A stretch of DNA of 31,461 nucleotides from the IMG/VR virus record IMGVR_UViG_3300025769_000505, positions 1-31,461 of that record, one strand, 5' to 3'. The DNA is from a virus. The notes under the pieces were generated by a model that worked only from the letters and a program-made list of their open reading frames with translations, was not told the DNA's origin and made no database searches. Below, one piece after another: positions 2,371-26,893 of the stretch (positions are counted from its first letter, which is position 1; each line of letters starts with the position of its first letter). Made by a program: the position numbers and the translations under genes.

Positions 2371-2378
2371 GCGCGCAT

Positions 2379-2397: not shown

Positions 2398-2411
2398 CGT
2401 TGGCAATCAAA

Positions 2412-2430: not shown

Positions 2431-2466
2431 GCAGTTTTGTGCGCCGACGGGCAAGGTCCGCCCAAC

Positions 2467-10038: not shown

Positions 10039-11187
10039 TCATGCGGCGTCCCTCAGCATGTCAATGGAACAGGTCGTACGGCCCACCTCGCCGTGCTCCG
10101 AGTGCATGACGATTAGCTTCATATCCCTGCCGGACAGATACCCACCGCCTGCGGCATAGGCATCATTCGCGGCGAGTGTTCTCACCTGCTCCACGATGCA
10201 ACCGTTAAACTCAACCCGTGAGTCGTGGTGGTGGTGGCCACGGAAGAAATACCGATGCCGGGTCTTGCCCCAGTCTTCAGGTTTCTCTGTCGCCATGATG
10301 CTAGGAAGGTTCGCATCCTTCGTTTTGTCGCCATGCACGAAGCCAAGCAGGGTCTTTCCGTGCCTGATGTAATGTCGAAGGGTTGGGGCATCGTGGACAA
10401 TCACCCGTGGTTCGTTTTCATAGACGTTCGCCAAAAGCACACCCATCGCCATTCCCAGCACCGGGTCGTGGTTGCCCACCACCGGCACAAAATGCACCGT
10501 CTCATGGCGTTCCAAGGCCGTGTGGATGCACTGGCGGACGGCAGACACACCAATCCGCATAACACGCTGCAAACGGGAGTCCACGTCCAGCACGTTGCCG
10601 TGGCCGGGGGTCATTCCTGCGTGGTTGTCTGCATGGAAAAAATCGCCGAGATTCGCGATGACGCATTGTTTTGAACGCGGGCCTTGAGACACCAGATAGT
10701 CAACGGCTGCGCACAGGTCGCGCTTGGCAATGTCCGTGTCGAAATCTTCGCCGCCCGTTTCTTCGCCCCACGCATAGCAGCCGAAATGCGGATCACCCCA
10801 TGGGATCACCGTCATCAGTTCGTCGTTGTAGGCTTTGTCTTTAATAGGTCGCGGCCTTAATTTAGGCAAAGCCTTGGCGCTTTCCTTAACCGCCTCCATG
10901 GCGATTTCCAGCAGCCGTTCCCGGTCCGCCGTGGTCTTGACCCATTCGGCCTTAATTTCACCATCCGGCCCGTACAGAGTCGAACGGCCCTTGACCATGT
11001 AACCATCGGGCGCGGAACCATCGACCCCCGCCCTGCCTGCAAAGCGGGTGTTACCGCTGGCAAGCCTGCTGCGGAATGTCTCGTAGGGAAGCCCAAGAAC
11101 CTTCGCGGCCTCGGCCTTGGTGCCGTGCATGGCAAGGGCGCTTGTGCAGTCCTGCCATTGTTCGTAAGTCACACCGGGATTGGCCAC
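10039..11187 (-). CDS. Helix-turn-helix plus calcineurin-like metallophosphoesterase
   Basis: A 382-residue two-part protein. Residues 7-42 form a resolvase-like helix-turn-helix (TKAEAAKVLGLPYETFRSRL). Residues about 125-330 are a metallophosphoesterase with all blocks present: D132 and H134 in GDPHFG, D182 in NLGDFFH, N239-H240-D241 in GNHD, H285 in VHGD, and H318-H321 in RGHHHH. Such enzymes cut phosphodiesters, for example in DNA, RNA or cyclic nucleotides, using two metal ions. Joining to a DNA-binding domain suggests action on DNA. It starts with GTG at 11187 (AAAGG upstream). Its place among lysis genes in the late operon is unusual for a DNA enzyme. Confidence 0.8.
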   Translation of the reverse strand: MANPGVTYEQWQDCTSALAMHGTKAEAAKVLGLPYETFRSRLASGNTRFAGRAGVDGSAPDGYMVKGRSTLYGPDGEIKAEWVKTTADRERLLEIAMEAVKESAKALPKLRPRPIKDKAYNDELMTVIPWGDPHFGCYAWGEETGGEDFDTDIAKRDLCAAVDYLVSQGPRSKQCVIANLGDFFHADNHAGMTPGHGNVLDVDSRLQRVMRIGVSAVRQCIHTALERHETVHFVPVVGNHDPVLGMAMGVLLANVYENEPRVIVHDAPTLRHYIRHGKTLLGFVHGDKTKDANLPSIMATEKPEDWGKTRHRYFFRGHHHHDSRVEFNGCIVEQVRTLAANDAYAAGGGYLSGRDMKLIVMHSEHGEVGRTTCSIDMLRDAA

Positions 11188-11199
11188 ATCAGGGCCTTT

Positions 11200-11439
11200 C
11201 TATTGTGTCTTGTCAACAAGCCATGTAATCGCAGCGAACTGCGCAACGATGACGCCGCCCACAAGCCACCACAGGCGGTTGCGGAACGAATCAAGTGAGT
11301 CTCGGATGCCCTTCATTTCTGTGCGGGCTTCCTTCCACCGTTCGCCGCAGCGATCCTCATGGGAGTCAATTTTTTGCTCCGCACGGCGCGCAATCTCCCG
11401 CGCCTCGTGGTCAACAGATTCGTTGGAGATCATGGTCAT
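11200..11439 (-). CDS. Small coiled-coil membrane protein
   Basis: A 79-residue protein: a charged helix of about 50 residues (EAREIARRAEQKIDSHEDRC onward) followed by one transmembrane helix (LWWLVGGVIVAQFAAITWLV) and a short tail. This layout resembles XhlA-type haemolysin/holin helpers, which anchor a lysis complex at the membrane, but the match is by shape rather than motif. The ATG overlaps the protease stop (ATGA). Its neighbours support a role in lysis or in the cell envelope. Confidence 0.6.
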   Translation of the reverse strand: MTMISNESVDHEAREIARRAEQKIDSHEDRCGERWKEARTEMKGIRDSLDSFRNRLWWLVGGVIVAQFAAITWLVDKTQ

Positions 11440-12152
11440 TTGCCCAGAAACTCGCAGATCGTCTTGGGTGACTGGATGATCGCCAGAGAGGTCGGAACGG
11501 CGATGGTTGCAAAGCCCATGGACTGCGGAGCGTTCAGAAGCGCCGTGGCAATCCCGACAAGGTTCCCGTCAATGTCGAACACCGGGCCACCGCTTGAGCC
11601 TGGGGCCACCGGAATCTGGGCAATGTAATAACTCCCCTCATCCCCGATGGACTGGCGGTCGGAATCCTCCAACAAGTCGGTGGCGGCGACGTTCCCCCAC
11701 ATCACCACCCAACGGCTAACTACGGGGTGTCCGGCGATGAACAGGGGTTCGCCTACCTCAACCGGCGTACAACGCACAGAGACGTGTTCTCTGTCGCCTG
11801 TAGGGGCATTCACAAGGGCAAGGTCGGGGGCTGGCATCTTCGGTGCATTGGAGGCGTCGATTTCCTCGCCCCATTCACTTGTGCCGTCGCGGAAGGTGAT
11901 GAACGTGTCGCGCCCGTTGGTGACGTGTGCCGCCGTCAGGATCATGTCCTGACCGATGACAACGCCCGAACCGTGGGCCGAGCCTTCCTCGTTCGCGTAA
12001 ACGATGACGACGGACTCAAGCGCAACCACAGCACGGGTTGCATCCGTGGTGCAGGCAAAAAGAAAGCCCGCCACAAGGGCGAGCATTGCAAAACGTCCGA
12101 AACTTTGTAACGGACCCACGCGGACAGATGCGCTATGTACTACCTCAGCCAT
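11436..12152 (-). CDS. Secreted trypsin-like serine protease, probable lipoprotein
   Basis: A 238-residue protease of the trypsin-2/HtrA-like fold without a PDZ domain. The catalytic triad is visible: H76 in LTAAHV, D110 in APDLALV and S187 in PGSSGGP. Residues 22-34 form a hydrophobic signal ending in LFAC, a usable lipobox, so the mature protein could be a lipoprotein starting at C34; the sequence before the hydrophobic core is unusually long. The ATG at 12152 has a GAGG element 7 bases upstream; an ATG at 12164 is the alternative. It is coupled to the small membrane protein. A phage-encoded envelope protease of this sort is uncommon. Possible roles are cleaving a host surface protein, superinfection exclusion, or lysis. 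Confidence 0.8.
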   Translation of the reverse strand: MAEVVHSASVRVGPLQSFGRFAMLALVAGFLFACTTDATRAVVALESVVIVYANEEGSAHGSGVVIGQDMILTAAHVTNGRDTFITFRDGTSEWGEEIDASNAPKMPAPDLALVNAPTGDREHVSVRCTPVEVGEPLFIAGHPVVSRWVVMWGNVAATDLLEDSDRQSIGDEGSYYIAQIPVAPGSSGGPVFDIDGNLVGIATALLNAPQSMGFATIAVPTSLAIIQSPKTICEFLGK

Positions 12153-12183
12153 GACACGCCTCATTGACAGGCGGTTGTGGTCA

Positions 12184-12218
12184 GGCTGGGGAGGGTGTTA
12201 CCAGCACCCTTCTCAGCC
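12184..12218 (+). other. Long imperfect hairpin between tail fibre and protease genes
   Basis: GGCTGGGGAGGGTG at 12184-12197 and CACCCTTCTCAGCC at 12205-12218 form a 14-bp stem with a 7-base loop in plus-strand RNA (two G-U pairs); in the minus-strand late mRNA two A-C mismatches remain but an 8-bp-plus stem is still possible. No T-tract follows on either strand. It lies in a 109-base gap and may mark an mRNA end or processing point separating the fibre and protease genes. Confidence 0.4.
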
Positions 12219-12261
12219 GCCAGATATTGTAGGTTAACGCGCATCAAAACACAACCCTTAG

Positions 12262-13374
12262 TTACGCGACCAGATAAGGCGTGATGGTCATTTTCCAGTT
12301 GCCGGGCGTCAGCGTGCTGCTCGCACGGGTTGTCTTGTTGACGATCGTGAAGCTGGAGTTTGCGATGTAGGCAACGACGTTCGTGCTATCGAGGGCAATA
12401 TCCACCTGTCCTGAAACACTGCTGCCACCGGGGCCAACCGCTCCAAGCACGATCTTGTTGCCCACCGACCAGTTGTGTTGCGCGGTGAGGCACTCGAACT
12501 CGATCTTGAAGAAGGTCGGGACCGCACCAAGCCCATGCGCCTGGGTAACAGAGGTGTTTATTGCAAACGGGTTCTGCACCAGCGGCGTTCCCGCCGTGAT
12601 GGTTGTTAGCGCCGCGATCTGTGCGGCAACATACGCCTTGATGGACTGCTGGCTTGCCACCCGCAGGGCGCTATCGGAGATCATGTCGTCTTCATCGAGG
12701 AACCATGTGGCGGCACTGATGTTGCCGAAACCCATGAGTCCCTGGGGTGTCACCGCGCGGCCCGTATCCGTACCGGCCTGCACCTCTGCCGCCGTGGCAA
12801 GTTCCACGATGCCGGGCGTCGTGGTGGACGCGGTAGCCGCCGCCACCGCCGCAGGGTTCAGAAGTTCCCACTGCGTCCCAGCGAGATTGTAGCGCAGGAT
12901 CAGTTCATGACCATCGCCCGCAATATCACCCGCCACCAGCGCGGAGCCGCCATCTTTCACGATGGTTCTTGCGGTCAATCCATTCGGGGAAAATGTCGGG
13001 GTGGTTGTCGCGTTCGCGGCGGTCGCACGGACAAAGCAAATCTGCCCATCAACAAGCCCCGTGATAGCCGGGGAATAGGTTGCGGTGATGGCATCAGCCG
13101 CACCGCCCCCATCTACCCAATTTACGGTGCCGTCCTGGGTCTGACCCATTGCCGTGTAGTCTGTGCGGGCCGAACCATTCCCAACTCCCGTATGCCGGTA
13201 AGTTCCCATCGGCAGGTTCGCGGTGGGCGTGGTCTGCCCGTCCTTGGCGATGGACGCGGTTAACGCCGTAGCGATGTCGTCCATTTCTGTGTTAACATCG
13301 GTCTCACTGATAACCGTGTCATACTGGTAGTCAGCTACAGGACGGCTGTAGGTTCCTGATCCGTTGCGGGCCAT
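12262..13374 (-). CDS. Tail fibre protein
   Basis: A 370-residue virion protein. It opens with MARNGSGTYSRPVADYQYDT, then a conserved block (ASIAKDGQTTPTANLPMGTY, RHTGVGNGSARTDY) seen at the start of many phage tail fibres, which attaches the fibre to the tail. The middle has a GIVELATAAEVQAGTDTGRA element, a known tail-fibre repeat. The C-terminal 100 residues are Ser/Thr-rich and beta-like, suited to receptor binding. AAGGAAC lies 7 bases before the ATG. It is the last clear structural gene of the late operon and begins after a 310-base gap that is mostly filled by a plus-strand gene. Confidence 0.85.
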   Translation of the reverse strand: MARNGSGTYSRPVADYQYDTVISETDVNTEMDDIATALTASIAKDGQTTPTANLPMGTYRHTGVGNGSARTDYTAMGQTQDGTVNWVDGGGAADAITATYSPAITGLVDGQICFVRATAANATTTPTFSPNGLTARTIVKDGGSALVAGDIAGDGHELILRYNLAGTQWELLNPAAVAAATASTTTPGIVELATAAEVQAGTDTGRAVTPQGLMGFGNISAATWFLDEDDMISDSALRVASQQSIKAYVAAQIAALTTITAGTPLVQNPFAINTSVTQAHGLGAVPTFFKIEFECLTAQHNWSVGNKIVLGAVGPGGSSVSGQVDIALDSTNVVAYIANSSFTIVNKTTRASSTLTPGNWKMTITPYLVA

Positions 13375-13496
13375 GTTTGTTCCTTCTCAGGGAATGCGCC
13401 GCTTCACAGCGGGGCGCTCCAAAATGGGGCGCGAATTGTAATGGTAAGGGTGGGGTTCAATCCCTACGTTTAGGCAACCAACCGGAGACGTAGTAA

Positions 13497-13688
13497 TTGG
13501 ACAGCGAACTAAGCCAAATCATTGCCATCACGCTGGCGATCATGGCCGCAAACGCACTCACAGCATCGTTTGCCTACGGCCTATGGCGAATGGGCCGAAG
13601 CGGCAACCGGATTGACCGCATTGTAATCCTCTGTCTCTTTGTCCCCGGTCTATTCTGGACAATGGGCTTTTGGGCTTTCCTGAATTAG
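13497..13688 (+). CDS. Small two-span membrane protein on the opposite strand
   Basis: A 63-residue protein read against the late operon. It has two hydrophobic helices, IIAITLAIMAANALTASFAY and IVILCLFVPGLFWTMGFWAF, joined by a basic loop (RMGRSGNRIDR), which places the loop in the cytoplasm. The start is TTG at 13497, with GGAGAC 8 bases upstream. It converges with the 695-residue ejection protein gene, the two stop codons overlapping by 4 bases. An opposite-strand membrane gene set into a late operon is the pattern of a 'moron', expressed in the lysogen, often for superinfection exclusion. The promoter could not be located. Confidence 0.55.
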   Translation: MDSELSQIIAITLAIMAANALTASFAYGLWRMGRSGNRIDRIVILCLFVPGLFWTMGFWAFLN

Positions 13689-15772
13689 CGAATGAGGCTT
13701 TCGAGGTTCACCCCGGCAGACGGGGCAAAGGGCCGCAACAGTTGCTGCGTGAGTCTACCATGCGCGTTCGCCGCCGCAGGGATGCCCTGCCCCGCCGCCT
13801 GAAGCTGGAGAAGCGTTGTTAGTGCGTCCTGACCACGCGGGCCAGTCAGCATATTGACAAGACTGCTGTATGTCTCATCCGCAATGCGGGCCTTGTCGTC
13901 CGCAGTCCTGCCCATAACGGTCTGAACAAACCGCTGCGTTGCATTGAGAGGCTGTCCGCTACGAAGGGCATTGATAACCCCGTCGTCGGTTTGGGCCGCC
14001 ACCGCATCATCAATTGAGGTGCGCGCGAACGTCTTGGAGTTGGTCGCCACAGCGGACCTCAGATCAAGGCCCATGGTGGCGCGGTCGATGGTCGAAAACA
14101 GTTCGTTGGCAGCGTCCTCACCAATGACCATAGCAATCTTTTCACGGGCGGCGCGGCTGGACAGTGCGCGCAAAGCGGCAACAGCCTCCCTCGCGTCCAT
14201 GTTGCTATCGGTCATCGCCCTGCGAACATTGGCAAGGGCCTCGTCAAGCTGTGAGCGAATACCCTGCGCAACGAAGGTGAGTTCCGCGTCTGTCATACCA
14301 GCCAACTGTTCGGCCAATTCGTCGCGGGTGATGCGAGTGCTTAGTGCGTCCGCACCCAAACGAAGGGCGTTGCGCGCCTCAATGGCGTGGGCGGCGGTGG
14401 AGAGGGCGTCAGAATATTCAGGCACCAGCGTTTTCGTCAGGTCGCGGATTTCGCGCGCAAGGTTGGATGTCGCCAAGCCAAGGGGGGTGGTTCCTCCTAG
14501 TTGGCCCTGACCGTTCGCAGCATCGGCCACCTGATTGAGTCCCCGCGTGATGTAATCAAGCTGGCGAACATCGGGGATGGTTTCAAACAGGACTGATCCA
14601 TCGTCAGCAATCTTGATGAGTATTTGCGAGGACTGGTTGCCCTCCAGGCGCATCAGTTCATTGGCGGCGCGGATGGCGGATTCGGGGACACGGGTTCGGA
14701 CGATCTGTTCAAGCGCCATGCCCTCGGGCGTGGAATAGTCGATGATCTGCGAATAAGCCAAATCGTATGCGTCGACGCGGGCGGGGGCCGATCCTGTGCG
14801 GATGGCGTTTTCTGTAGACCGGATGCCTGCGGGCTGCCCGAAGGCGCTATCAAATGCGTTTGTGAGAACCGTGTTGGCATCGGACGCGCGAGACTCAACC
14901 GCGTCACGGCCAATAACCGTTGCTGGCCCACCACGCTGGATTGCAACATCAAGCAAGGCAGATGCGCTTGGTCCGGCATCGGCAATCATGGCATCATCAC
15001 CAGCCGCAACCAACCTTGTGGCACCGGGGCCGGTCAGCGCACCGTCTGCGCCCATGACGCGGGTTGCAATGTCGTATGCAGGCTTGGTCAGCCCCGCAGC
15101 CGCAGCGGCAGGGCGCGTGAGTAGGCGTTCTGTCAGGTTCCGCACACCATGCCCCAACATCGGCGCGGCAACACCCAGGGGCGCGGAAAGAGCGCCTGTC
15201 AAAAGGCCATCCTCAAGCCTTTCACCCGCACCACCTTCACCGGCATTAAACCCGTAGACAAACCCCTGCCCGCCAGCCTCAAGCCCGCCCAGAAGCATCT
15301 TTGCCCGCAGGGAATTTGCGCCCAAACCTGCGCCGCCAGTCCCTACTGCCGTTGGGATTGCGCCCACAATCTCCGAGCCATAGGCCAAGATGGGTTCCTG
15401 GTCGCGGAAGTCGTCAAGGCGTGTGCGCTCGTTTTCGAGTGAGGCATCGTAAACCTCGCCCATGGGCCTATCGACACTGCTAAATACGCCGGGGAGGCCG
15501 AGAGATTCGCCAATGTCGGCGAATGTTTCGGGGGCCAATTGCAGAAGTTCGTTCTTTAGCGCAACGCCACCGGCAACGATTTCATCGCCAGCGCCAAACG
15601 TGCCGCCCTGCACAAACGAACGGCCCATGCCCTCAAGTGTGTCAACCTCGGGGCGAGCGGGCGGTGACGACTGCATGGAACGGGCGATTTCGGCAAGCCT
15701 TTTTGCCGCCTCGGCATCGCCTGCGGCGTCGGCATTCCGCAACGCAGCGAGAACTTCATCAAGCGTCGCCAT
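13685..15772 (-). CDS. Large internal virion / DNA ejection protein (probable)
   Basis: A 695-residue Ala-rich, mostly helical protein. It starts MATLDEVLAALRNADAAGDA at an ATG overlapping the previous stop (TAATG). A glycine-rich hydrophobic stretch (residues about 130-200: EIVGAIPTAVGTGGAGLG, then GALSAPLGVAAPMLGHG) could insert in a membrane, and long amphipathic helices follow. Size, composition and place after the tail accessory genes match the P22 gp7/gp20/gp16 ejection proteins, which enter the host with the DNA. There is no clear enzyme motif. Family assignment is by context and composition only. Confidence 0.65.
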   Translation of the reverse strand: MATLDEVLAALRNADAAGDAEAAKRLAEIARSMQSSPPARPEVDTLEGMGRSFVQGGTFGAGDEIVAGGVALKNELLQLAPETFADIGESLGLPGVFSSVDRPMGEVYDASLENERTRLDDFRDQEPILAYGSEIVGAIPTAVGTGGAGLGANSLRAKMLLGGLEAGGQGFVYGFNAGEGGAGERLEDGLLTGALSAPLGVAAPMLGHGVRNLTERLLTRPAAAAAGLTKPAYDIATRVMGADGALTGPGATRLVAAGDDAMIADAGPSASALLDVAIQRGGPATVIGRDAVESRASDANTVLTNAFDSAFGQPAGIRSTENAIRTGSAPARVDAYDLAYSQIIDYSTPEGMALEQIVRTRVPESAIRAANELMRLEGNQSSQILIKIADDGSVLFETIPDVRQLDYITRGLNQVADAANGQGQLGGTTPLGLATSNLAREIRDLTKTLVPEYSDALSTAAHAIEARNALRLGADALSTRITRDELAEQLAGMTDAELTFVAQGIRSQLDEALANVRRAMTDSNMDAREAVAALRALSSRAAREKIAMVIGEDAANELFSTIDRATMGLDLRSAVATNSKTFARTSIDDAVAAQTDDGVINALRSGQPLNATQRFVQTVMGRTADDKARIADETYSSLVNMLTGPRGQDALTTLLQLQAAGQGIPAAANAHGRLTQQLLRPFAPSAGVNLESLIR

Positions 15773-17139
15773 TACTGCACCGCCCATTTATTGATTAGCG
15801 CCTCATCCTCGGGCGTAATTCCGCCACCGGATGCGGTTGGCGCGGCGTTAGTGCCGTGGATGACCTCGTTGTAGGTTTCGAGTAGCCTCTCCATGTTGAA
15901 AAGGAACTGCGGACGGCTCTGCGACTGCTTGAGGCTACCCAGCACCGCCGTCAAACGGTCCAGTTCGCCTTGGCTAACATCGCCAAGCGCGCCGCCCGTG
16001 GGCGATGCCTGCCGCATCTCATTGATATAACCAAACCCAATGTTGGCTTCGAGGCCAAGAATAATTTGTGCCAGATCGTGCTGCGGGGTGCCGGGGACAA
16101 ACGAACCAAGCTCGCCGGTTATGCCGGTCAGGGGGATAAACCATCCTGCGTTAACCAGGTCAATGGCGCGGTTGATATCCTGCACCATGAAGTCTGCGGT
16201 TTCGCGTTCGGACTCCGCTGCGTTGGCCTCGGTTTCTGCCGCTTCTTGCAACTCACGGTCAGCTTCAGAGCCTGGGGTGACAACCTGCTTCCACCCAAAC
16301 TGACTGCCAGGATCAGGCTCCCAATGATAGCCCTTATCTGGATCAATGGGATCGCCAGAAGGATCAATCGGCCCGTCAGTGCGAACGCCGAGGTCAGCAC
16401 CAGACGGCGCGGTGATGCTCGCCTCGTAATAACCCGCCTGCGCCAGTTCATTTGCGCGGGCGCGGCCTTCGGGGGTCGACAGATCGACCGCCACAATATC
16501 GCCGAGGCCGTTCGTGAAGTTAGAGAAGTTCGCTGCGGCGGGCGCGGCGGGCTGCCAACGGGGGGCCGTAGCAAGTGGCGTCCATGTCTGTGAGGCCGCA
16601 TCCCACTGCTTGGTCACGATTGACCCGCCTTCATTGAACTCCCTCACCAGAGGCTCGCCGGGGGCCGGGGGCGCTTCCGCAACCGCGCCCAAGGCGTCAC
16701 CCTGTCGGATGTATTCGTAAGCGCCAGTTTCGGGATTCCACGCCTGCACCAGATTGTTGTTCTGTGCGTCAAGCTGGCGCTGGTAATCCAGTTCCGAGTT
16801 CGCCATGTCAAACGCCATCGGCGCAAGGTTCGGATCACCCGCCATAATCTGCATGGCAAGCGAGCGGTTCGGCTCCTGACCGGGAATCAACGTGGTGGGA
16901 TCACCCGTGCCGTCAGGGCGCGTCGGCTGGTTCCATGTGATGGTGTTGTCCGGCGTTCCCGTCATGGCTGTCAGGGCTTCCGTGAGACGCTGGCGCGTGG
17001 CCTCTTCCTCACGCTGATCCTTGCCCATGGAGTGGCCCAACATGCCCTGCTGCAAGACGTGCGCAAGCCCGCCCCACATCGTGCCGTTGTTGACGTTGGG
17101 CTGGTTCTGGAGCAGTTGGGTGTACTTGCCGCCGATCAT
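15772..17139 (-). CDS. Internal virion protein (probable ejection protein)
   Basis: A 455-residue protein. The start MIGGKYTQLLQNQPNVNNGT contains a hydrophobic-glycine segment (GGLAHVLQQGMLGHSMG) like the N terminus of phage ejection proteins. The middle is Pro/Asp/Gln-rich with low complexity, and residues about 300-420 are helical. The ATG overlaps the upstream stop (ATGA), and its stop overlaps the next start (TAATG). Three consecutive large, non-enzymatic, helix- and Ala-rich proteins here parallel the ejection gene cluster of P22. No specific family recognised. Confidence 0.65.
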   Translation of the reverse strand: MIGGKYTQLLQNQPNVNNGTMWGGLAHVLQQGMLGHSMGKDQREEEATRQRLTEALTAMTGTPDNTITWNQPTRPDGTGDPTTLIPGQEPNRSLAMQIMAGDPNLAPMAFDMANSELDYQRQLDAQNNNLVQAWNPETGAYEYIRQGDALGAVAEAPPAPGEPLVREFNEGGSIVTKQWDAASQTWTPLATAPRWQPAAPAAANFSNFTNGLGDIVAVDLSTPEGRARANELAQAGYYEASITAPSGADLGVRTDGPIDPSGDPIDPDKGYHWEPDPGSQFGWKQVVTPGSEADRELQEAAETEANAAESERETADFMVQDINRAIDLVNAGWFIPLTGITGELGSFVPGTPQHDLAQIILGLEANIGFGYINEMRQASPTGGALGDVSQGELDRLTAVLGSLKQSQSRPQFLFNMERLLETYNEVIHGTNAAPTASGGGITPEDEALINKWAVQ

Positions 17140-18173
17140 CGAATGGCCTCCGCGTAGTTCACCGCGTCAAAGTCACCGATGCGATGCACGGCCCACGGCT
17201 TCACCTCTCTCACTTCATCGGCCATGAACCCGACACCCGGAGCGCCCCAGATGTAGCGCCAGACGTACAGGGGAAGGTTGGCAAAGGTGCCAATGCGAAC
17301 GATGTCACCCTTGAGGCGACGGTCTGACCACGCAAGCGGATTGTAGGCGTAAGCCTGCGCACCAGCACCAAGAAGCCCTGCCAAACCCTGCATGTTTGAG
17401 GCGTCGTTTGCCTGATTCGCATTGTAGGCGTTCATCTGGCCGTTATAGCTGCCATAGGTCGCGCCCATGATGTCGGCGGGATTCATCATGTACTGCCCCG
17501 TTGCGATCTGCGGGGGTGCCTGCACCTGTGTGCCGGACATAAGGGCCGCGAGTTCGTTGAGCGGTGCCTGACGTTCCATAAGCTGACTGCGGATGGCCTG
17601 GTCATAAGCGGACGCATCCATGCCGTAGGCCGTCGCCTGCTGTCCCAACGCCGCGTTCTGTGCCGCAAGGCTAAAGTCGTTCTGGCCCCGGTTGTAATCA
17701 TCCATGGCCGAACCATACGCCGCCGAACCGATGTCAATGCCCTGATTCGCCAGCCGGGTTTCCAGCATCTCGCGCTGGCGGGATGCCTGGGGCTGGTTGC
17801 GGTTGATAATCGCGTCATAGGAACGCTGCCACGCTTCGGGATCAGCCGTGGGAGGCGCACCGGCAAATTCCACCGGGGACGAGAACCGTTCCGCCACGGC
17901 TCCAAGCTGGTTGTTGGCAATCTCGCCGTACTGCAACCCCGCCTGATTGTTCTGCTCCAGCATCTGCTGCTGTGCGGGGGCAAGGGTCTGTGTCACGGTC
18001 CTGTCAGGACTGCCCAACTCGCCAGTGTACGACAAGGAACCCCACGGGGTTACTTGCGTGATCTGGTTCATCAGCGCGCTCTCGCGCACGGCCTCCTTGT
18101 TCGCGGCGGCCTGTGCGGCGGCGGTCTGTGCGGGATCGGGAGGTGTGGGGGCCGAGGGTGAACTTTTACCCAT
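17136..18173 (-). CDS. Virion protein with C-terminal S74 intramolecular chaperone domain
   Basis: A 345-residue protein. Residues 1-270 are Ala/Gln/Asn-rich and helical, with a signal for neither export nor membrane. Residues 282-345 match the S74 chaperone of endosialidase-type tail spikes: SDRRLKGDI at 283-291, PLYVWRYIWG, GVGFMADEV and a final DAVNYAE. In that family the domain helps trimer folding and then cuts itself off just before the conserved serine (here S283), with the following Lys/Asp taking part. The ATG at 18173 has GGAG 7 bases upstream; earlier in-frame ATGs lack one. It overlaps the acetyltransferase gene by 8 bases. Confidence 0.75.
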   Translation of the reverse strand: MGKSSPSAPTPPDPAQTAAAQAAANKEAVRESALMNQITQVTPWGSLSYTGELGSPDRTVTQTLAPAQQQMLEQNNQAGLQYGEIANNQLGAVAERFSSPVEFAGAPPTADPEAWQRSYDAIINRNQPQASRQREMLETRLANQGIDIGSAAYGSAMDDYNRGQNDFSLAAQNAALGQQATAYGMDASAYDQAIRSQLMERQAPLNELAALMSGTQVQAPPQIATGQYMMNPADIMGATYGSYNGQMNAYNANQANDASNMQGLAGLLGAGAQAYAYNPLAWSDRRLKGDIVRIGTFANLPLYVWRYIWGAPGVGFMADEVREVKPWAVHRIGDFDAVNYAEAIR

Positions 18174-18603
18174 GTGCGTCTCCATATAGGCGGTCAAAGT
18201 CGGGGCGCAGCATTCTCATAATGACCGCGTGTCGTTTCTTGCCGAACTGGTGCGCAAGGATGGCCTCGCGCTTGAACCCGGCGTGTTCGTTAACCTTCAG
18301 TGCGCGCTCATTGCTCTGGGCCGTCGTGGTCCAGACTTTGAAACACCCAAGCTGAAGGAAGGGATAGGCCAGCAATTCACGTATGACCTCGCGCCGCGCC
18401 CAAATGGGGGTGACGGCGGCCATGCTCAGTTGCATCGTTCCAAACTGTTCCTGGTAGTCGTGATAAACCATCCCGGCAATCAGCCGGTCGGTCGCAACCC
18501 CTATCGCGGCAGAAGGCCCGTGAAAGCCTCTTTCGCCAACGTCGGGGATGTTCTCAGCCACCCATGCCGCAACCTCTGCGTCATGGCCGTAAATCAGTCT
18601 CAC
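18166..18603 (-). CDS. GNAT-family N-acetyltransferase-like phage protein
   Basis: A 145-residue protein with the GNAT fold: an N-terminal helix pair (GHDAEVAAWVAENIP), a strand pair around IGVATDRLIAGMVYHDYQ, the acetyl-CoA-binding region followed by a helix (REVIRELLAYPFLQLG), then the classic VWTTTAQSNERALKVNEHAG FKREA segment, in which N-x-x-A-x-x-x-x-x-x-A-G-F is the motif B part of the family. The GTG start at 18603 overlaps the upstream stop (GTGA). Such acetyltransferases lie among structural genes of many alphaproteobacterial podoviruses. Substrate unknown; a virion protein or host factor is possible. Confidence 0.75.
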   Translation of the reverse strand: MRLIYGHDAEVAAWVAENIPDVGERGFHGPSAAIGVATDRLIAGMVYHDYQEQFGTMQLSMAAVTPIWARREVIRELLAYPFLQLGCFKVWTTTAQSNERALKVNEHAGFKREAILAHQFGKKRHAVIMRMLRPDFDRLYGDAHG

Positions 18604-19988
18604 AGCGGCCCGCCCGGCACATACAACCAGTTTGTGACCAACCATGAAGGCTGATTGACACTCGTGGAAATCCGAATGCGCAACGACGCGGCCCGTCCGA
18701 TGCCACGGATGCCACGCCAGCCTCTATAGGTCTGCGAAGCCGAACCCCATTTACCGATGCCCCATTTGGCGATGCCCCATTTGGAAGCCGTTACAGGCGA
18801 GGTCGAGGCAACGGCGGTAGGGCGGCGGATCTGATAGTCTAGGTTCACATCAAGCGCGGCCGATGGTGCGCCGTTACTCTGGAAGATTGGCTCAACCAGC
18901 GTGAATCGCTTGTTTGCTCCAGGTGAGCGGAAGTCGTTGAACGCCTGCAAGGCATCAGCGTTGATGTTCGAGCCGTTATCGTCGTTGCCGTCGTCAAATT
19001 TATAAACCGTGCCGTCATCCTGCCCGCCAAAGTAGGCAGAATCATTCAACAGACCCCAACACGCCGCGTTGATTCCCGTAAACCGGCATGGCGCGCGTGT
19101 GATGGTGTTGAACACGTATTGGTGAGCTTCAACGGCACTCTGAGGCACGTTGAACATCAGCATCGCACCCTTTGGGTAGATGAAGGGTTGCCACCCAAAC
19201 AAGGATGATCCGGCCTGTACGGCGTCGTTCACCGCCTTGTTGATCTGCTGGGAGATGGACACAGCGTCCGCCTGGGACCTGTCCGCGATAAGGATTTGCG
19301 ATGCAGCCACAAAACCATCCTGTGTGACCATAATCAGGTCAGCGCCAGCCTTAATCATGCACCTGCGCCCGATAGGCTTGCCAATGCGAAACACACCCAC
19401 CAGCGACCATGTAGACGCACTGGACGGGTCGGTTCCCGCGTACACGATGGCCTCGCCTTCTGACGTCAGGAACACCGCCACGTCATCGGCCCCCGCTCCG
19501 CCGTCACGGGACCACGTGCCCATCGCCATAATGTAGCCGCCAAGTTTCGCCACACCACCAAGGGGAAATTCCGCTGCAACCCCGGTGATGGAGTTGACGG
19601 CAAGATACCATGCCGACATGGAGTCCTTTTCGCCAAACCACAACCGTCTCTGGTGGTTGTTGCACCACACAAGATTTGCCATTGTCGGGCCGGTTGCGGT
19701 GGAGTTCGCCCATGCGGAACCGTTGTAGGTCCGGGGAGTGTCGGCACCGTTCACGGCAAAGAGGAAATGCCCTCCAGATGTGGAAATCTGTGTGTGCTGA
19801 AACCTGACATTCGTGAGTCCGGTCACAACCCCTGCCCCAACGGCACCAGCACTCGATACGTCAAAGAGCGACGTGCCGTTGCCCGCGAACAGTTCGCCCG
19901 TTCCCGTGGTCGGGGTGTATTCAAGCAGGCTTTCAACCGCGCCGGACATGCCTGTTGCGTGGGACGTGTGGCCTTTGCGCACCGTCAC
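18600..19988 (-). CDS. gp10-like tail accessory protein, main part (frame-shifted from its N terminus)
   Basis: The 462-residue body of a P22 gp10-like tail accessory (DNA stabilisation) protein, which plugs the neck and carries the tail needle in P22 (gp10 is 472 residues). It is rich in strand repeats and ends with KWGIAKWGIGKWGSASQTYR and SWLVTNWLYVPGGPL. The true N terminus is encoded upstream in another frame (see 19990-20163); an exact 46-bp tandem duplication separates them. As it stands, this frame could only begin at the GTG at 19988 inside the first copy, preceded by an AAGG ribosome binding site that overlaps the upstream stop, so re-initiation is conceivable. The product would lack about 43 N-terminal residues. 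Confidence 0.8.
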   Translation of the reverse strand: MTVRKGHTSHATGMSGAVESLLEYTPTTGTGELFAGNGTSLFDVSSAGAVGAGVVTGLTNVRFQHTQISTSGGHFLFAVNGADTPRTYNGSAWANSTATGPTMANLVWCNNHQRRLWFGEKDSMSAWYLAVNSITGVAAEFPLGGVAKLGGYIMAMGTWSRDGGAGADDVAVFLTSEGEAIVYAGTDPSSASTWSLVGVFRIGKPIGRRCMIKAGADLIMVTQDGFVAASQILIADRSQADAVSISQQINKAVNDAVQAGSSLFGWQPFIYPKGAMLMFNVPQSAVEAHQYVFNTITRAPCRFTGINAACWGLLNDSAYFGGQDDGTVYKFDDGNDDNGSNINADALQAFNDFRSPGANKRFTLVEPIFQSNGAPSAALDVNLDYQIRRPTAVASTSPVTASKWGIAKWGIGKWGSASQTYRGWRGIRGIGRAASLRIRISTSVNQPSWLVTNWLYVPGGPL

Positions 19989-20042
19989 CTTATCCGCCTG
20001 TTGCGTGGGACGTGTGGCCTTTGCGCACCGTCACCTTATCCG
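19951..20042. repeat. 46-bp exact tandem duplication
   Basis: Positions 19951-19996 and 19997-20042 are identical, 46 of 46. Both copies lie inside the gp10-like gene and each encodes the same peptide, V-T-V-R-K-G-H-T-S-H-A-T-G, but in different frames, because 46 is not a multiple of three. Removing either copy would restore one continuous frame. The lack of any divergence shows that the event is recent or is an assembly artefact. Confidence 0.97.
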
Positions 20043-20163
20043 TCGAAGGGAACCAATTATCGAGAATGACCGCGTTCTCTACCGGCATGTCGGCAAGTGC
20101 GTTTCTGGTGTCCCATCCACCCACGGGCGGCGGGACTGAAGCTGTGCGGGATGGGCGCTTCAT
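19990..20163 (-). pseudogene. N-terminal fragment of the gp10-like tail accessory protein
   Basis: A 57-codon frame beginning at an ATG that overlaps the stop of the tail adaptor gene (ATGA). It reads PPPVGGWDTRNALADMPVEN, then AVILDNWFPSTDKVTVRKGH and TSHATGG before a TAA at 19990-19992. The block 'VGGWDTRNALADMP...AVILDNWFP' is the expected N terminus of this tail protein family, and the final 13 residues before the stop are repeated at the start of the downstream frame. It is therefore the 5' end of the same gene, cut off by the duplication. Single-copy repair gives a protein of about 505 residues. Confidence 0.85.
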
Positions 20164-20873
20164 CAGATCACGTTGATATTGGTGCCGGACGTGGCCGGAA
20201 CGCCCGTGAAGTGGCGACCGCCGCCGAAGATGTCAGCCGAAACCATGATATTCGCGGCGGGCTGGTCGTTCTCAATCATCGTGTCCATGTAATCGCGCAT
20301 CTCCTGGAACGCGACGTCATTTGGCAGTCCTTCATCCGTCAAATATGTGAACTTCAACGCGCGCAGGATCAGCTCTTCATCCAGCACACCCACGTCCGTA
20401 TCAGCGGCCCATGCGGACTGTCCCGTGCCACCGGAAGATTGGCACCACTGGTTGGATACGTATTCAAACGCCAGCGACTTTCCAGCACCAGGTGCCGGAA
20501 TCAGCAGAACAGCGTCACCGCGATAAGCGAACTTCGTGTCGCCCTGATAGTCGTAGGCTTTCAATCCCTGCCATTCCGTCGCAGTCACAGGCCCGCTGAT
20601 AAGGATGTAATCGGTGCGATTCCAAAACGTCTCCTTCACGAACCTGTCAAAGTCCGAAGGGAGGATGCTGGTCTGCGTCTCACCAGCGACGGAGGTAAAC
20701 GTGCCTTCCTTGCGGAGAGCCTGCCAGACAACCGACCTCATCAGCCAATTACCGGCCTTGTTCGCATAGCGAAGGAGTTTCTGCGCGGACGGGTCGGAAC
20801 TGCCGATGACGGATGACGGGCGGTCAATGCCCACTTCATCAGCGGCGTTGTTGCAGATGGTCAACAGGGTCAT
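20163..20873 (-). CDS. Head-tail adaptor, gp4-like (probable)
   Basis: A 236-residue virion protein. The opening MTLLTICNNAADEVGIDRPS followed by SDPSAQKLLRYANKAGNWLM and VWQALRKEGTF is a well-known pattern in podovirus neck proteins, and P22 gp4, the first tail accessory factor below the portal, holds the corresponding place in the gene order. The C terminus is glycine-rich (ADIFGGGRHFTGVPATSGTN). It is coupled to both neighbours by ATGA overlaps. Structural role is inferred from pattern and position; P22 gp4 is shorter (166 residues) and also has muramidase activity, which I cannot assess here. Confidence 0.7.
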   Translation of the reverse strand: MTLLTICNNAADEVGIDRPSSVIGSSDPSAQKLLRYANKAGNWLMRSVVWQALRKEGTFTSVAGETQTSILPSDFDRFVKETFWNRTDYILISGPVTATEWQGLKAYDYQGDTKFAYRGDAVLLIPAPGAGKSLAFEYVSNQWCQSSGGTGQSAWAADTDVGVLDEELILRALKFTYLTDEGLPNDVAFQEMRDYMDTMIENDQPAANIMVSADIFGGGRHFTGVPATSGTNINVI

Positions 20874-21598
20874 GGCATCCTCTCCCAGACACCGCCAGTG
20901 CGGAGCATGGACTGTGCAAGGTGTTCACCCACAAGGCGCGTTTTTACGCATCCCATGGCGGGAATTAGTTCGGCGAGGTATTCGGCCTGACACACAAGCC
21001 CGAGGCATGTGTCCCACCCCTTGCCCTCGCAAATAACGCCCATCTCGTCGTAGTCCCTGACGTTGGAATAAGCGTGGGTGATACCCCCGGAATAGGAACT
21101 GTCAGCCCCGTATAAGGTGATGCCGCGATAACCCAGAATTGCAGCCAGCATCGGCGCACGGGTCATCATGGTTGGCCCACCGGGGACACTTAACGGCGGC
21201 GTGTTATCTTCCCCCTGCGGGGCGTAAAATGTGGTCACGTTGCTGTCTGCCAGAAGGTCGAACACCTCCGGTGCACACATCGTGGCAACGTAGTAGTCAA
21301 CCCCTTTATGGGGTGTGATGAGGTCCGCAAGCTGCGGCTCGGGATCAAGCAGGGCGACACAATCGGGAACGCGGCCCTGACTGATAAGCCAGTCCTGCGC
21401 GCCGTTGATCGCCATAATGTGACCGTCGAAGTTCAACAGGTCGTCAACGTGATCTGCCGACGATTGCCCACCCCCAACAATGGCTAGGGATTCGTCTTTA
21501 GCGGGGGCAGCGACCAGCCCAGGTCTCCCCAGGCTGGCCGCGTATTCCCGATTGCGCCGCAAGCCATCAGGCCCAACGACGCAAACTGACCTAATCAA
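20870..21598 (-). CDS. DUF115/MptE-like protein in the head module
   Basis: A 242-residue protein of the DUF115 type, related to 6-hydroxymethylpterin diphosphokinase MptE and to flagellin-glycosylating Maf proteins. Evidence: a glycine-rich loop VGGGQSSADHVDD (about residues 41-53), IMAINGAQDWLISQGRVPDC followed by VALLDPEPQ, and a late GITLYGADSSYSGG block, the order seen in this family, whose fold binds a nucleotide or sugar nucleotide. The start is TTG at 21598, overlapping the upstream stop (TTGA). Being between the coat and neck genes, it may modify virion glycans or host surface, but its activity is unknown. Confidence 0.65.
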   Translation of the reverse strand: MIRSVCVVGPDGLRRNREYAASLGRPGLVAAPAKDESLAIVGGGQSSADHVDDLLNFDGHIMAINGAQDWLISQGRVPDCVALLDPEPQLADLITPHKGVDYYVATMCAPEVFDLLADSNVTTFYAPQGEDNTPPLSVPGGPTMMTRAPMLAAILGYRGITLYGADSSYSGGITHAYSNVRDYDEMGVICEGKGWDTCLGLVCQAEYLAELIPAMGCVKTRLVGEHLAQSMLRTGGVWERMP

Positions 21599-21798
21599 GT
21601 TTCGATCAGGCCCAGTTCACGCAGAGCGGTGAGCACCGAGTTCACGGTGTCCATCGCGCTGGTGGCAGTCGCGGTTGCCGAAGCAATCGCGGCGGGCTGG
21701 TCAACGGGGGTGTCCCCGAAGAAAGCCACGAGGTCAGTGGCCGACTGACCCAGACGGGTGCCGTCCGGGTTGCCGTCAGAAAGTTCTTTCACAGCCAT
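21595..21798 (-). CDS. Small virion-associated protein (head-fibre type)
   Basis: A 67-residue protein: MAVKELSDGNPDGTRLGQSA, TDLVAFFGDTPVDQPAAIAS, then a helical tail with heptad-like hydrophobics (MDTVNSVLTALRELGLI). The 'D-G-T-x-L-G-Q-S-x-x-D-x-x-x-F-F-G-x-T-P-V-x-Q' pattern is found in small proteins of many phages next to the coat gene, annotated as head fibre or decoration proteins. The helical tail could trimerise. A strong AAGGAG precedes the ATG, and it lies 13 bases after the coat gene. Structural role inferred. Confidence 0.65.
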   Translation of the reverse strand: MAVKELSDGNPDGTRLGQSATDLVAFFGDTPVDQPAAIASATATATSAMDTVNSVLTALRELGLIET

Positions 21799-21811
21799 GG
21801 TTCATCACTCC

Positions 21812-23032
21812 TTAGTGAAGGCCAAGACGACATGCCAGTTCAGGACGGACAGCTTTGTACCCGTACAGAACGTCGATGCGGCAAGGCAGGTTGTCGTTGT
21901 TGATGTCGTAGTCGCGGATGATGCGCATGGAGATGCCGTCCATGACCTCACGGGCCGAGAAATCGACGCCCTTGGGCATGACAAGATCAGCCGTTGCAAA
22001 GGCGAAGGCATCCTTGTGGTAGCCCATACCGATGGAGTAATCGGCGGCGTTGCCAATGGCAGTCGAGGAGTCCGACTCGCGCTTGTAGATGGCAGAACCA
22101 TCGGCAATGGCATCCACGTTCTGACGAGCGCCAGACGTGACAATGTTCGGGCTAATCGACAAGTCGCCTTCACCACCGGCGTAATCGGCGGTCACAACGA
22201 ACTGCTGGAGAACACCCGTCGAAGCCTTGGTTTCGGGATGCACCCGATACGTACCGGCAATCTCGATGATGTCGCCCTGCTTGAACGTGCCCGCACCCGT
22301 GTCGATGTGGAGCGAACCAGCCGAGCCGTCAGCCTCGCCAGCGCCGATGTCGGTCAGGTAATCGCCCGTGCCGTCATCGGTGCCCGTGGTGTGGATCGGC
22401 CACAGCGTGTTCTGGTACACGTCCATGAAGCCCAGGAAGTTCGGCGCAACCATACCTTCGCGGTAGTTCTTGCTGATCTTGCCTGCGTCGTTGAACTGAC
22501 CCTTGACCGCTTCCAGAAGGTCGAGGTTGTACTGTGTGGGGAAGTTCAGGCAACGCGGCGAAATCGGCGCAAGGCTGTCGGTCAGCTTCTTCTGCACCTG
22601 GAGAGCCAGGTTGGTCGTGGCCGAAGCACCAACGTCACTGACCTCGTTGTAAACGCTCTTGTACATCGACATGGCGTCGGATTCGATGTTCGCCGCCAGA
22701 ACCGACATGGCCGGGTCCAGAATGCGGCTCGAAAAGTCGTCCAGGTTCATGGTCAGGTCAACCGACGTGAACGCCATATCAACGCCCTTCTGGGTGGCAA
22801 CCTGGAGCGTAACGCTGGTCTCGCTGGTGTCCTGCACGTCGATGACACGGCCCGTGCGGACGGTGTATTCGTTGGGCAGGCGGATCTTCAGACTGTCGCC
22901 AATCTTGGCTCCGGTCTTGGCAAACTGATCGTCGTACTGGCGATCAATCGTGCCGACAAAGTTGAGCTTCTGATGCAGAATCCGAAGCGCCTCACGGGTT
23001 ACAGCCGTGGGGGTAAGAATGCTATTGGACAT
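21812..23032 (-). CDS. Major capsid protein, P22 coat type
   Basis: The coat protein, 406 residues, of the P22 gene 5 family (P22: 430). Diagnostic parts are the N-terminal MSNSILTPTAVTREALRILH, the early block DDQFAKTGAKIGDSLKIRLP with VRTGRVIDVQDTSETSVTLQ, and KGVDMAFTSVDLTMNLDDFS, the order expected of the HK97-fold N arm and P domain. A variable inserted region lies near residues 220-290 and a Gly-rich part near 240-260. It follows the scaffold gene by 57 bases, with GGAA ahead of its ATG, and is expected to be the most abundant product of the late operon. Confidence 0.92.
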   Translation of the reverse strand: MSNSILTPTAVTREALRILHQKLNFVGTIDRQYDDQFAKTGAKIGDSLKIRLPNEYTVRTGRVIDVQDTSETSVTLQVATQKGVDMAFTSVDLTMNLDDFSSRILDPAMSVLAANIESDAMSMYKSVYNEVSDVGASATTNLALQVQKKLTDSLAPISPRCLNFPTQYNLDLLEAVKGQFNDAGKISKNYREGMVAPNFLGFMDVYQNTLWPIHTTGTDDGTGDYLTDIGAGEADGSAGSLHIDTGAGTFKQGDIIEIAGTYRVHPETKASTGVLQQFVVTADYAGGEGDLSISPNIVTSGARQNVDAIADGSAIYKRESDSSTAIGNAADYSIGMGYHKDAFAFATADLVMPKGVDFSAREVMDGISMRIIRDYDINNDNLPCRIDVLYGYKAVRPELACRLGLH

Positions 23033-23089
23033 GATGAAAGTTCCATCTATGGGAGGGTGGGCGTCTCACGACGCTCAAGGGGATGGGCG

Positions 23090-24028
23090 TTAAGCCCTAT
23101 TTGAGAGTTGAAGGTTGCGGCGGCGCGCCCATTCATCGGCAGACATTTTGTCGGCGTCCTGAACAAGATCGAGTTTGGGCTTTCCGCCCTTACCCTTGCT
23201 CGGTCGAATGGGTGTTGCTCCCGCAGGTTTCGGTTTGACGGCCTGTGCCGTCCGCGTTTTCGCAGCGTCGTACTGCATCGCCTTCCACGCCATTTCCGTA
23301 ACGATGGGGTTGCGCGTCCACTTTCCGGCTTCCGCCTCGGGAATGCCTTGACTGATCGCGTACTTCACCAGTTCCGGTGCGTGTTTCTCGGCAAAGCCGG
23401 GGATGCGCTTCTCAACCTCGCGGCGACCCTCTTCCTCGCGTCGGGCCAGTTCGGCCTCCTGCGCCTTGGATCGTTCGCCTTCCAGTCGGGAAACTTCGTT
23501 GACGACGGCATTGAATTCGGCCTGCTTCTTCGCAATCGTATCCGAAATGCGCCGTGCCTGGTCCGGGTTGGACTGCCACAACGCCTGCGTATTGACATTC
23601 TGAAGCTGCGCGATTTCCTGCTTGAGTGCGTTTCCGCGTGAAAACTTGTCCAGCGCCTCGCCGTCCAGGGTCGCAAGACGCTCAACGGCCTGCTCTCGGG
23701 CCGCTACGCTCTCACGCTGTTCAGCAAGTGTCTGGAATTTCTTGGTGTAGCCAGATTCAAGGTTGCGGGAGAAATCCGTGATCTTCGCAACAACGTCCTC
23801 CGGGATCGCCGATTTCGGCACCCGCAGCTTGTCGCCGCCAAAGTTCAGTTCAATCTCTTCCTCTACCTCTTCTTCGTCACCTTCATCTTGCCCGTCACCG
23901 TCTTCCGTGTCCTCGGTTTCAACGGCATCATCGCCCTCGTCAGTTTCGGTTGTCACTTCTTCTTCTGTGATTTCCTCAACAATCTCGGGTGCGGCTTCCT
24001 CGGCAGGATTGCCCGCTTCTTCGTTCAT
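23090..24028 (-). CDS. Scaffolding protein (probable)
   Basis: A 312-residue protein. Start at 24028 (AAGGAG 7 bases upstream). Residues 1-65 are extremely acidic (runs such as EEVTTETDEGDDAVETEDTE), then a folded segment (LRVPKSAIPEDVVAKITDFS), a long charged coiled coil (about residues 95-200) and a basic C terminus (PKPAGATPIRPSKGKGGKPK, KLD). Acidic start, coiled coil and basic tail are the architecture of podovirus scaffolds, where the basic tail binds coat protein. It lies directly before the coat gene as in P22. Function inferred from architecture and context. Confidence 0.75.
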   Translation of the reverse strand: MNEEAGNPAEEAAPEIVEEITEEEVTTETDEGDDAVETEDTEDGDGQDEGDEEEVEEEIELNFGGDKLRVPKSAIPEDVVAKITDFSRNLESGYTKKFQTLAEQRESVAAREQAVERLATLDGEALDKFSRGNALKQEIAQLQNVNTQALWQSNPDQARRISDTIAKKQAEFNAVVNEVSRLEGERSKAQEAELARREEEGRREVEKRIPGFAEKHAPELVKYAISQGIPEAEAGKWTRNPIVTEMAWKAMQYDAAKTRTAQAVKPKPAGATPIRPSKGKGGKPKLDLVQDADKMSADEWARRRNLQLSNRA

Positions 24029-24042
24029 AATCACTCCTTGGG

Positions 24043-24333
24043 TTAGCAAAGAAGCAAGATTGCCTCTTCGTCGTCACGCTCCATCAAGGAGCGATACATG
24101 CGCAAAAGGCTTTCGACCGCCTCACGGGCTTGAGCCATCTTGCGAAACGCTATGTCGTTAACGGGTGGCAGGCTGTCAGCGAATGCGTACAGGTCCGCAA
24201 ACGGCGAAACGACCGGGGCCACTGCCTCGTAGGACTTGGGTTCCTCGCGCAGCCGCAGATAGATGCGGCGCAGCGTCTTGACCTTGATGCACGGCTTGTT
24301 GGCCGGTCGTTCCTACCGGCCTTCTGTGCTCAT
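24043..24333 (-). pseudogene. 97-codon phage gene interrupted by an amber codon at position 7
   Basis: The frame starts at an ATG overlapping the portal stop (ATGA) and reads MSTEGR, then TAG at 24315-24313, then stays open for 90 codons to TAA at 24043-24045: CIKVKTLRRIYLRLREEPKS, YEAVAPVVSPFADLYAFADS, LPPVNDIAFRKMAQAREAVE and SLLRMYRSLMERDDEEAILL. The codon use is like that of the surrounding genes, and the protein would be a helical 96-residue product between portal and scaffold. No ATG follows soon after the TAG. Either it is a nonsense mutant, or the amber is read through, or an unusual start is used. Function unknown. Confidence 0.6.
24301..24321 (-). other. 7-bp hairpin around the amber codon
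   Basis: GGCCGGT at 24301-24307 and ACCGGCC at 24315-24321 are exact inverted repeats with a 7-base loop. In the late mRNA the TAG begins at the last base pair of the 5' arm and enters the loop. It lies 9 bases after the portal stop. It could be a weak transcription or processing signal, or an element affecting decoding of the amber. Confidence 0.5.
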
Positions 24334-26477
24334 GCCAGTTCCACGCCGGTAATCCGGCCTTCGGCGTCACGCACAACCCTCTTTGGCGCGCTGATAAGCC
24401 TTGCAGCTTCGCCCATGGGATCGGGGGCCTCCTGCTTCGCCAGGATCACCTTGGCTAGTTCCATCTCGCGATCCAGCGCAGCCTGTCGGGCGTCCTCTTT
24501 GGCCTCCCATTCCTTCAATCCTAATTCACGCTCTTTAAGGGCGAGTTCGCGGCTTTTGATTTCGAGTTCGGCCCGCTTGGCTTCCATGTCTGAGGCGATC
24601 TTCTTGGCCTCAATCTCGGCCTTGGCGGCGGCTTCGGCCTGTTTGGCCTGCATCTCGCCCTGCTTGGATTCCAGTTCGGCCTGCATACCCTGCATGGCCT
24701 GCATACCCTGTTGCATCTGCGCCTGAAGCTGCTTCAGTTCCTGGTCCTTGGCCGCAATCATGGCCTGCGCCTCGGGGGGAATGTCGGCCTCGCTTTCCTC
24801 CATCTTCCGCACTTCGGGGGGAAGCGTCATCTTGAGGCGCTTAGCAACTCTGTCAGCACCAACGAAGTCCATGTGTTCCATCAGAACGTCGCCCAGGATC
24901 GGCGCGGCTCCGGGGATGGCGCGGATGATCTCAATCAGCACCTCACGGGTTTCTTCGCGCTGTGTGCCGTAAGACGGGCCGGACTTCACGTCCACGTCAT
25001 AGATGCCGGTGGCAAGGTCATACATGGGGCCGTCGCTCTGCCCGCCCAACTGAACGACCTTCTCGGCATTATCCTCGCCCAAGATGCGGATGGCCTGACG
25101 GTCCTTGTAGACAGCCGGGATGATCTCAACCAACACCCGCCCCGCGTACCGGATGGCGCGGTTAAGGTTGTCGATGAAGTGGAAGTTGCTCACGTCGGCT
25201 TCACGCTGTCTTGCCATGATTGCACGGCCCGACGTTTCGTTGCTGCGAGCGCCCAAGGATGCGTCATAGATGCCCATGACGGACTTCATGTCGTCTGAAG
25301 CGTTCAGTGCCTCCTGCAACGCACCGGCAGGCACTCCAGCGAAGGGCTGGCGCTGGGGCAAGTTCGTGCCCTTGGAATACATCAGGTAGGGATGCGAGCG
25401 GGTGTTGGCCGTCTGCCACGTTGCCTCATGCCCCTTGGGAATGCCGCCCTCTTCCATCAGGAATGGCGCACGGGGGGCAAGGGCCACCAGTTCCGTTGTG
25501 GCGCTACGCCAGAAGTTGAACATCGTCTGGGGGTCTTTTGCGTCCCGCACCATCGACCGGAAGTGACGCCTGCCGTCCAACACAATCTCCTCACCCCACA
25601 CGGGGCAAATCGGGATTGTGGAACCGGGCCACTTCTCTTCTTCAAGAACCTCAGCGCCGTTGATCTTGCGGCGAACCACGTTAAAGGCGTCAACCTCACG
25701 CTCTCGGGTCGGTACAACGCCCGTCATCTCAAGGTCGGCCTTCGCCTGGTCAATGTATTCTTCCTCGCGGATCGTCATGCCGTTGGAGAGAAGCAGAATC
25801 TTCCGCTTGATAGGCTCCCTCAACCAGTAGTCGGCAACCCTGATCTTTTCATCCTGTGACCACAAAGCGGCCTGGTCGCGGGTGTCACCCTCCCAACTGA
25901 TTTTCGCCTTGCCGGGATACGCAGCCTCAAATTCCTCTTCTGACATGAAGTCGGAGACGAAGGCATAATCCCAATCAGAGGCATCAAATTCCGTGGACGA
26001 AGGATCCCAATGAACCATCAGGGGATTGGCAATACGCTCAATCCGGGCCTCAAGGTCGAAGCTGTCGGCGTGGGTGTAGTCAATGCCGATCTGGAAGAAC
26101 CCAAACCCGCCAGAGGCCGCCTGGTCGATTGCCGTGTCGTAGGCAACATCGGCGTTGGAACGCCGCTCAATCGAGCGCACCAGCCCGTTGATGACCCCCG
26201 CCGTGTCTTCGTCAGCGCCATTGTCCACGGGATGAACCGTAATGGCTGGTTTGTTCTGGCGCGCGTCGTTGACCACCTGCCGAATGAAGGCGGGCAGTTT
26301 GTTGATGGTCAGACACGGGCGGCCCTCTTCCTCGCGGGCCTTGCGGATGGCCTCGGGCCACTGGTCTGCCAGACGCGAGAACGTCATGTCCTCATGCGCA
26401 GCCTGGCGGGAGAAGTCCGTGGCGTCGTCAGACTCCTTGAACCGCTCAAGCGCCTCTTTGATGATCGGTTCAGACAT
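24330..26477 (-). CDS. Portal protein, P22 type
   Basis: The 715-residue dodecameric ring through which DNA enters and leaves the capsid, close to P22 gp1 in length (725). Residues about 1-60 (EDM TFSRLADQWPEAIRKARE, then RPCLTINKLPAFIRQVVNDA) and RQNKPAITVHPVDNGADEDT, with the W-D-P-x-S block (PLMVHWDPSSTEFDASDWDY), are typical of P22-like portals. A long Gln/Glu/Lys-rich helix at about 569-677 corresponds to the portal barrel extending into the capsid. The ATG overlaps the previous stop (TAATG). The stop overlaps the ATG of the amber-interrupted gene. Confidence 0.9.
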   Translation of the reverse strand: MSEPIIKEALERFKESDDATDFSRQAAHEDMTFSRLADQWPEAIRKAREEEGRPCLTINKLPAFIRQVVNDARQNKPAITVHPVDNGADEDTAGVINGLVRSIERRSNADVAYDTAIDQAASGGFGFFQIGIDYTHADSFDLEARIERIANPLMVHWDPSSTEFDASDWDYAFVSDFMSEEEFEAAYPGKAKISWEGDTRDQAALWSQDEKIRVADYWLREPIKRKILLLSNGMTIREEEYIDQAKADLEMTGVVPTREREVDAFNVVRRKINGAEVLEEEKWPGSTIPICPVWGEEIVLDGRRHFRSMVRDAKDPQTMFNFWRSATTELVALAPRAPFLMEEGGIPKGHEATWQTANTRSHPYLMYSKGTNLPQRQPFAGVPAGALQEALNASDDMKSVMGIYDASLGARSNETSGRAIMARQREADVSNFHFIDNLNRAIRYAGRVLVEIIPAVYKDRQAIRILGEDNAEKVVQLGGQSDGPMYDLATGIYDVDVKSGPSYGTQREETREVLIEIIRAIPGAAPILGDVLMEHMDFVGADRVAKRLKMTLPPEVRKMEESEADIPPEAQAMIAAKDQELKQLQAQMQQGMQAMQGMQAELESKQGEMQAKQAEAAAKAEIEAKKIASDMEAKRAELEIKSRELALKERELGLKEWEAKEDARQAALDREMELAKVILAKQEAPDPMGEAARLISAPKRVVRDAEGRITGVELA

Positions 26478-26893
26478 TATCCAACTCCTGCAACGACGTA
26501 AGCCGGTGCTGTGTTTTCGGGGATCGTGACGATGTAATCAGCCAGGGCGCCCAGCAGATCACCGCCCCAGATCGGGTTCTCGTCTTCGTCGTATCCCGTG
26601 ACTTCAATCAGATTGCCCGTCAGGTAGGCGTCAATGTGCCATTCCCTGCCCTTGCGGGATCGCATGACCGCGCCGGGGTTCATGATGGGCAGCCCGTCCT
26701 CGTCCACCTCACCCGAAGGCGTGGGGCGTCCGAAGATTTGGGCGCGGAGCATCAGGAACGAACCATTTGGATGGCGCACGGTTTTCAGTTCAAACGGATT
26801 GCCGTTCTCGTCCGTGGTGTCGAACACAAAGCCGTGGGCCTCGAAGACTTGCTTGGCCGTGTTCCGGTTGGGAAAGGCGAGGTCTACTCTCAT
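26477..26893 (-). CDS. Hypothetical virion-module protein
   Basis: A 138-residue soluble protein of mixed strand and acidic loops (TTDENGNPFELKTVRHPNGS, VDEDGLPIMNPGAVMRSRKG). The alternating D/E-rich turns and hydrophobic strands suggest a beta-rich structural protein, but I recognise no family. It lies between the head-spike-like gene and portal and is coupled to both (ATGA and TAATG overlaps), so it is expressed at similar levels. A possible assembly or decoration protein. Confidence 0.6.
   Translation of the reverse strand: MRVDLAFPNRNTAKQVFEAHGFVFDTTDENGNPFELKTVRHPNGSFLMLRAQIFGRPTPSGEVDEDGLPIMNPGAVMRSRKGREWHIDAYLTGNLIEVTGYDEDENPIWGGDLLGALADYIVTIPENTAPAYVVAGVG

Follow-up and report, generated by a model that had tools for sequence, protein, structure and literature searches.

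A 46-bp tandem duplication that splits a predicted tail nozzle gene in a metagenomic phage contig is probably an assembly artefact

Introduction

In the 31,461-bp metagenomic contig analysed here, a virus record of IMG/VR (the window, meaning this whole stretch of DNA), the reading frame of a minus-strand gene resembling the tail nozzle gene of phage P22 is broken into two open reading frames by a 46-bp tandem duplication. Does the phage itself carry the extra copy, and with it a disrupted virion-assembly gene, or was the copy introduced when the contig was assembled? The initial annotation of the locus offered three readings: an assembly error, a very recent mutation and a phase-variation-like switch. 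We have examined these by comparing the window with related viral contigs and by modelling the product of an intact homologue.

Results

An exact duplication breaks the reading frame

The sequences at 19950-19995 and 19996-20041 of the window are 100% identical and form exact tandem copies of a 46-bp unit. In the direction of the minus-strand gene, the first copy of the unit (GGATAAGGTGACGGTGCGCAAAGGCCACACGTCCCACGCAACAGGC) is located at 19996-20041 and the second, adjoining copy at 19950-19995. One further base matches at the repeat, which makes 19951-20042 an equally valid reading; the duplication initially annotated at these latter coordinates is thus the same one. TRF assigned the repeat a score of 186, and the next tandem repeat in the window scored 66. 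A 46/46 match at period 46 is expected by chance about 3e-23 times in the window, so a chance origin is out of the question. As the extra identity at the junction of the copies is limited to one base, there is no obvious seed for slippage.

The 5′ fragment of the gene (19990-20163, minus strand) comprises 57 codons, from an ATG at 20163 to a TAA at 19992-19990 that sits just inside the second copy of the unit. The peptide read before this TAA is MKRPSRTASVPPPVGGWDTRNALADMPVENAVILDNWFPSTDKVTVRKGHTSHATGG, and homologues continue without a stop. The 3′ fragment (18600-19988, minus strand) comprises 462 codons and begins with a GTG at 19988-19986, one base past the TAA. The frames and peptides initially given for the two halves are correct. 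Directly upstream of the nozzle gene is a gene for a tail protein of PHROG 6013 (20163-20873, minus strand), which occupies the position of P22 gp4 / T7 tubular tail A and whose stop overlaps the ATG at 20163. The nozzle protein also has KWGIAKWGIGKWG close to its C-terminus, encoded by an in-frame 15-bp repeat at 18745-18784; the tryptophans are invariant in relatives.

The close spacing of the TAA and the GTG has a geometry that could permit restart, and the 57- and 462-codon parts might both be made, via the GTG or via frameshifting, so that the split gene is functional. We find this scarcely credible. The geometry follows automatically from the sequence of the unit, all relatives encode one chain, and the model of an intact homologue (see below) has a strand at residues 6-10, in the segment that the split would remove.

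The gene is a predicted P22 gp10-like tail nozzle gene

The 462-codon part matches PHROG 5107, which is labelled "amidase", with an E-value of 4.6e-108. This was the only PHROG hit; PHROG 578, the P22 gp10 family, was not matched, and neither was any Pfam or NCBIfam family, PF11134 included. Profile comparison with P22 gp10 using hhalign returned a probability of 0.3%, and sequence searches of the PDB matched no phage protein, whether the query was the single protein or the profile. The initial description of the gene as gp10-like is therefore not borne out by direct sequence tests, but it is upheld by the fold of a modelled homologue and by gene order.

The intact homologue (505 residues) encoded by the contig L002, described below, was modelled with AlphaFold from a 19-row alignment of relatives, giving a pLDDT of 75.8 and a pTM of 0.79. 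Compared with P22 gp10 (8eap, 8u10), the model reached Z-scores of 24.3-24.4 over 416-420 residues, and other podophage tail nozzle proteins were also among its top structural matches. The model thus has its fold in common with P22 gp10, the head closure Hc3 / tail nozzle protein, at a Z of about 24, whereas sequence identity to P22 gp10 is about 11-12%.

In the window, genes for a P22-type portal and coat (both identified by Pfam) and for the PHROG 6013 tail protein precede the nozzle gene, and downstream of it are two genes, one acyl-CoA N-acyltransferase-like and one with an S74 domain. The order portal, coat, adaptor, nozzle also holds in P22 and in Sulfitobacter phage phiGT1, where gp10 and its counterpart likewise follow a gene of the gp4 / tubular tail A type. 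The annotated gene order in phiGT1 is as in the window, and the corresponding gene is noted there as matching Phage_stabilise and P22 gp10; the gene order in Myxococcus phage Mx9 is similar. The assignment of the window gene as a P22 gp10-like tail nozzle gene is supported by the modelled fold together with this gene order.

In the RefSeq records NC_020856, NC_020858, NC_027299 and NC_003085, the nozzle protein family is called "amidase" (lysis). This label looks wrong, on PHROG 5107 as well as in the RefSeq entries, given that the modelled fold is that of a P22 gp10-like tail nozzle.

Relatives have an open frame at the site

A search for single-copy homologues, as suggested in the initial annotation, showed that all 22 homologous IMG/VR contigs, namely L002, which has one copy, and 21 others, keep an open frame across the site. 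In an alignment of 14 sequences, the duplicated segment is present once in each, and for the majority of phage isolates the match is unbroken and begins at residues 1-9. A gene split as a fixed feature is ruled out by these open frames and by the alignment. Of the other viral contigs searched, L002 alone carries the exact single-copy junction, and none carries the exact two-copy one. At these junctions, the copy-number states seen are one copy in L002 and two in the window. Among phage records, no direct nucleotide relatives of the window were found.

Related contigs amounting to 1.80 Mb hold six other exact tandem duplications with a period of at least 18. In all six the period is a multiple of three, with a maximum of 33 bp. 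By this comparison of sequences the frame-breaking 46-bp duplication is an outlier, as would be expected for an artefact or for a mutation that selection has yet to remove.

A frame-shifting tandem copy is reversible in principle, and duplication-based phase variation of the capsule is known from pneumococcus. In the same manner, the nozzle gene could be turned off when the 46-bp copy is gained and on again when it is lost. We consider such a switch extremely unlikely, as none of the 22 homologous contigs has two copies or a tandem repeat at the site, no inverted repeat was detected in the 2-kb region searched, and the phage has no obvious gain from switching off a virion-assembly gene. In the collection of papers searched, we found no reports on duplication-driven phase variation.

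The twin contig L002 holds a single copy

L002 (IMG/VR contig 3300025759_001282; 16,690 bp) aligns with 10833-26921 of the window, about 16 kb, with zero substitutions, and the sole difference is the 46 bp. It has one copy of the unit and an intact 505-codon gene, in agreement with the initial proposal that the gene would be continuous with one copy. L002 is thus a second assembly of the identical sequence without the extra copy, as expected of an assembly artefact. Because it is single-copy and has no substitutions over about 16 kb, assembly error is the favoured one of the three initial readings; a very recent mutation is less likely, and the switch is unsupported.

Near-identical contigs from the datasets 3300007234, 3300006916 and 3300007236 carry 25 SNPs in 26.4 kb. 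Had the window and L002 come from different population members, this pooled rate would predict about 15 SNPs between them; zero were observed. The Poisson probability of observing none is about 2e-7 at the pooled rate and 0.035 at the lowest single-contig rate, figures that serve as a guide only since the SNPs are clustered. As the contigs of the other datasets carry SNPs and L002 carries none, we infer from the sequences that the window and L002 probably derive from one common sample, perhaps from the same reads. No paper in the collection searched named the datasets 3300025759 or 3300006916.

Past 26921, L002 diverges from the window over about 420 bp (26922-27343 of the window), within a large open reading frame (26890-28737), and it matches again at 98% from 27344. 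This divergence may reflect local variability, or one of the assemblies may have switched strains here. In another contig, L016, 11 of the 19 SNPs relative to the window fall in 19314-19518, a cluster about 430 bp from the duplication, and the contig breaks off at 19536.

Discussion

Taken together, the evidence indicates that the second copy is probably an assembly artefact in the metagenomic contig. The assembler would have linked two pieces originating from a phage population of mixed strains, and a 46-base stretch common to the ends of both pieces would have been written twice; the joining step itself is one that we infer. The phage would then probably have one copy and an intact 505-codon P22 gp10-like nozzle gene. 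The dense strain variation near the site may mark a spot of the kind where assemblers tend to misjoin. We could confirm no assembler setting that matches the unit length of 46.

In the cases that we draw on from Kelley and Salzberg (2010; PMC2864568), polymorphic sequence that was assembled twice gave rise to a false duplication. Those cases resemble the one proposed here in that two copies result from mis-assembly, but they concern segmental duplications in diploid vertebrate genomes, whereas the present duplication is 46 bp long and located in a metagenomic phage contig. For false tandem duplications of short length in metagenome assemblies, a literature search returned nothing specific.

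We also considered that the contig might be circular, rotated and left with an untrimmed overlap of its ends, and rejected this, as the window ends form no continuous gene and no end repeat was found. The ends of the window, at 1-58 (a methylase-like start) and about 31430-31461 (the end of another gene), seem to cut genes, which are named here from a reading of their translations. Since the ends seem to cut genes and do not join, the contig is a fragment.

Spontaneous short tandem duplications, as in slippage mutants, are a known cause of frameshifts. The window resembles such mutants in its exact copies, clean boundary and lost frame, which is what fresh slippage leaves, and a real, very recent duplication by replication slippage or template switching, carried by some members of the population or by a decaying prophage, would be indistinguishable from an artefact in a single assembly. 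It would truncate the nozzle protein and leave a defective genome unless one copy was lost. An S24-type repressor (2263-3096) and a tyrosine integrase (6300-7229) suggest that the phage is temperate, in which case a defective prophage could persist. We nevertheless regard a real duplication as unlikely. In contrast to slippage mutants, the duplication is known from one contig, the sole near-identical contig across the site (L002) has one copy, and the junction offers slippage no obvious seed. If real, the duplication would represent at best a rare defective mutant. That it is both real and reversible, with the nozzle gene off in part of the population, e.g., in a decaying or helper-dependent prophage, is very unlikely.

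The probable mislabelling of the nozzle family touches the annotation of phages such as Sulfitobacter phages pCB2047-A/-C and Myxococcus phage Mx8. The locus also calls for caution, as a frame-breaking duplication that is short and exact can stand in one contig of an uncultivated virus and be missing from another assembly of the same sequence. Claims of gene disruption or phase variation made from such contigs therefore need support from reads or from a second assembly.
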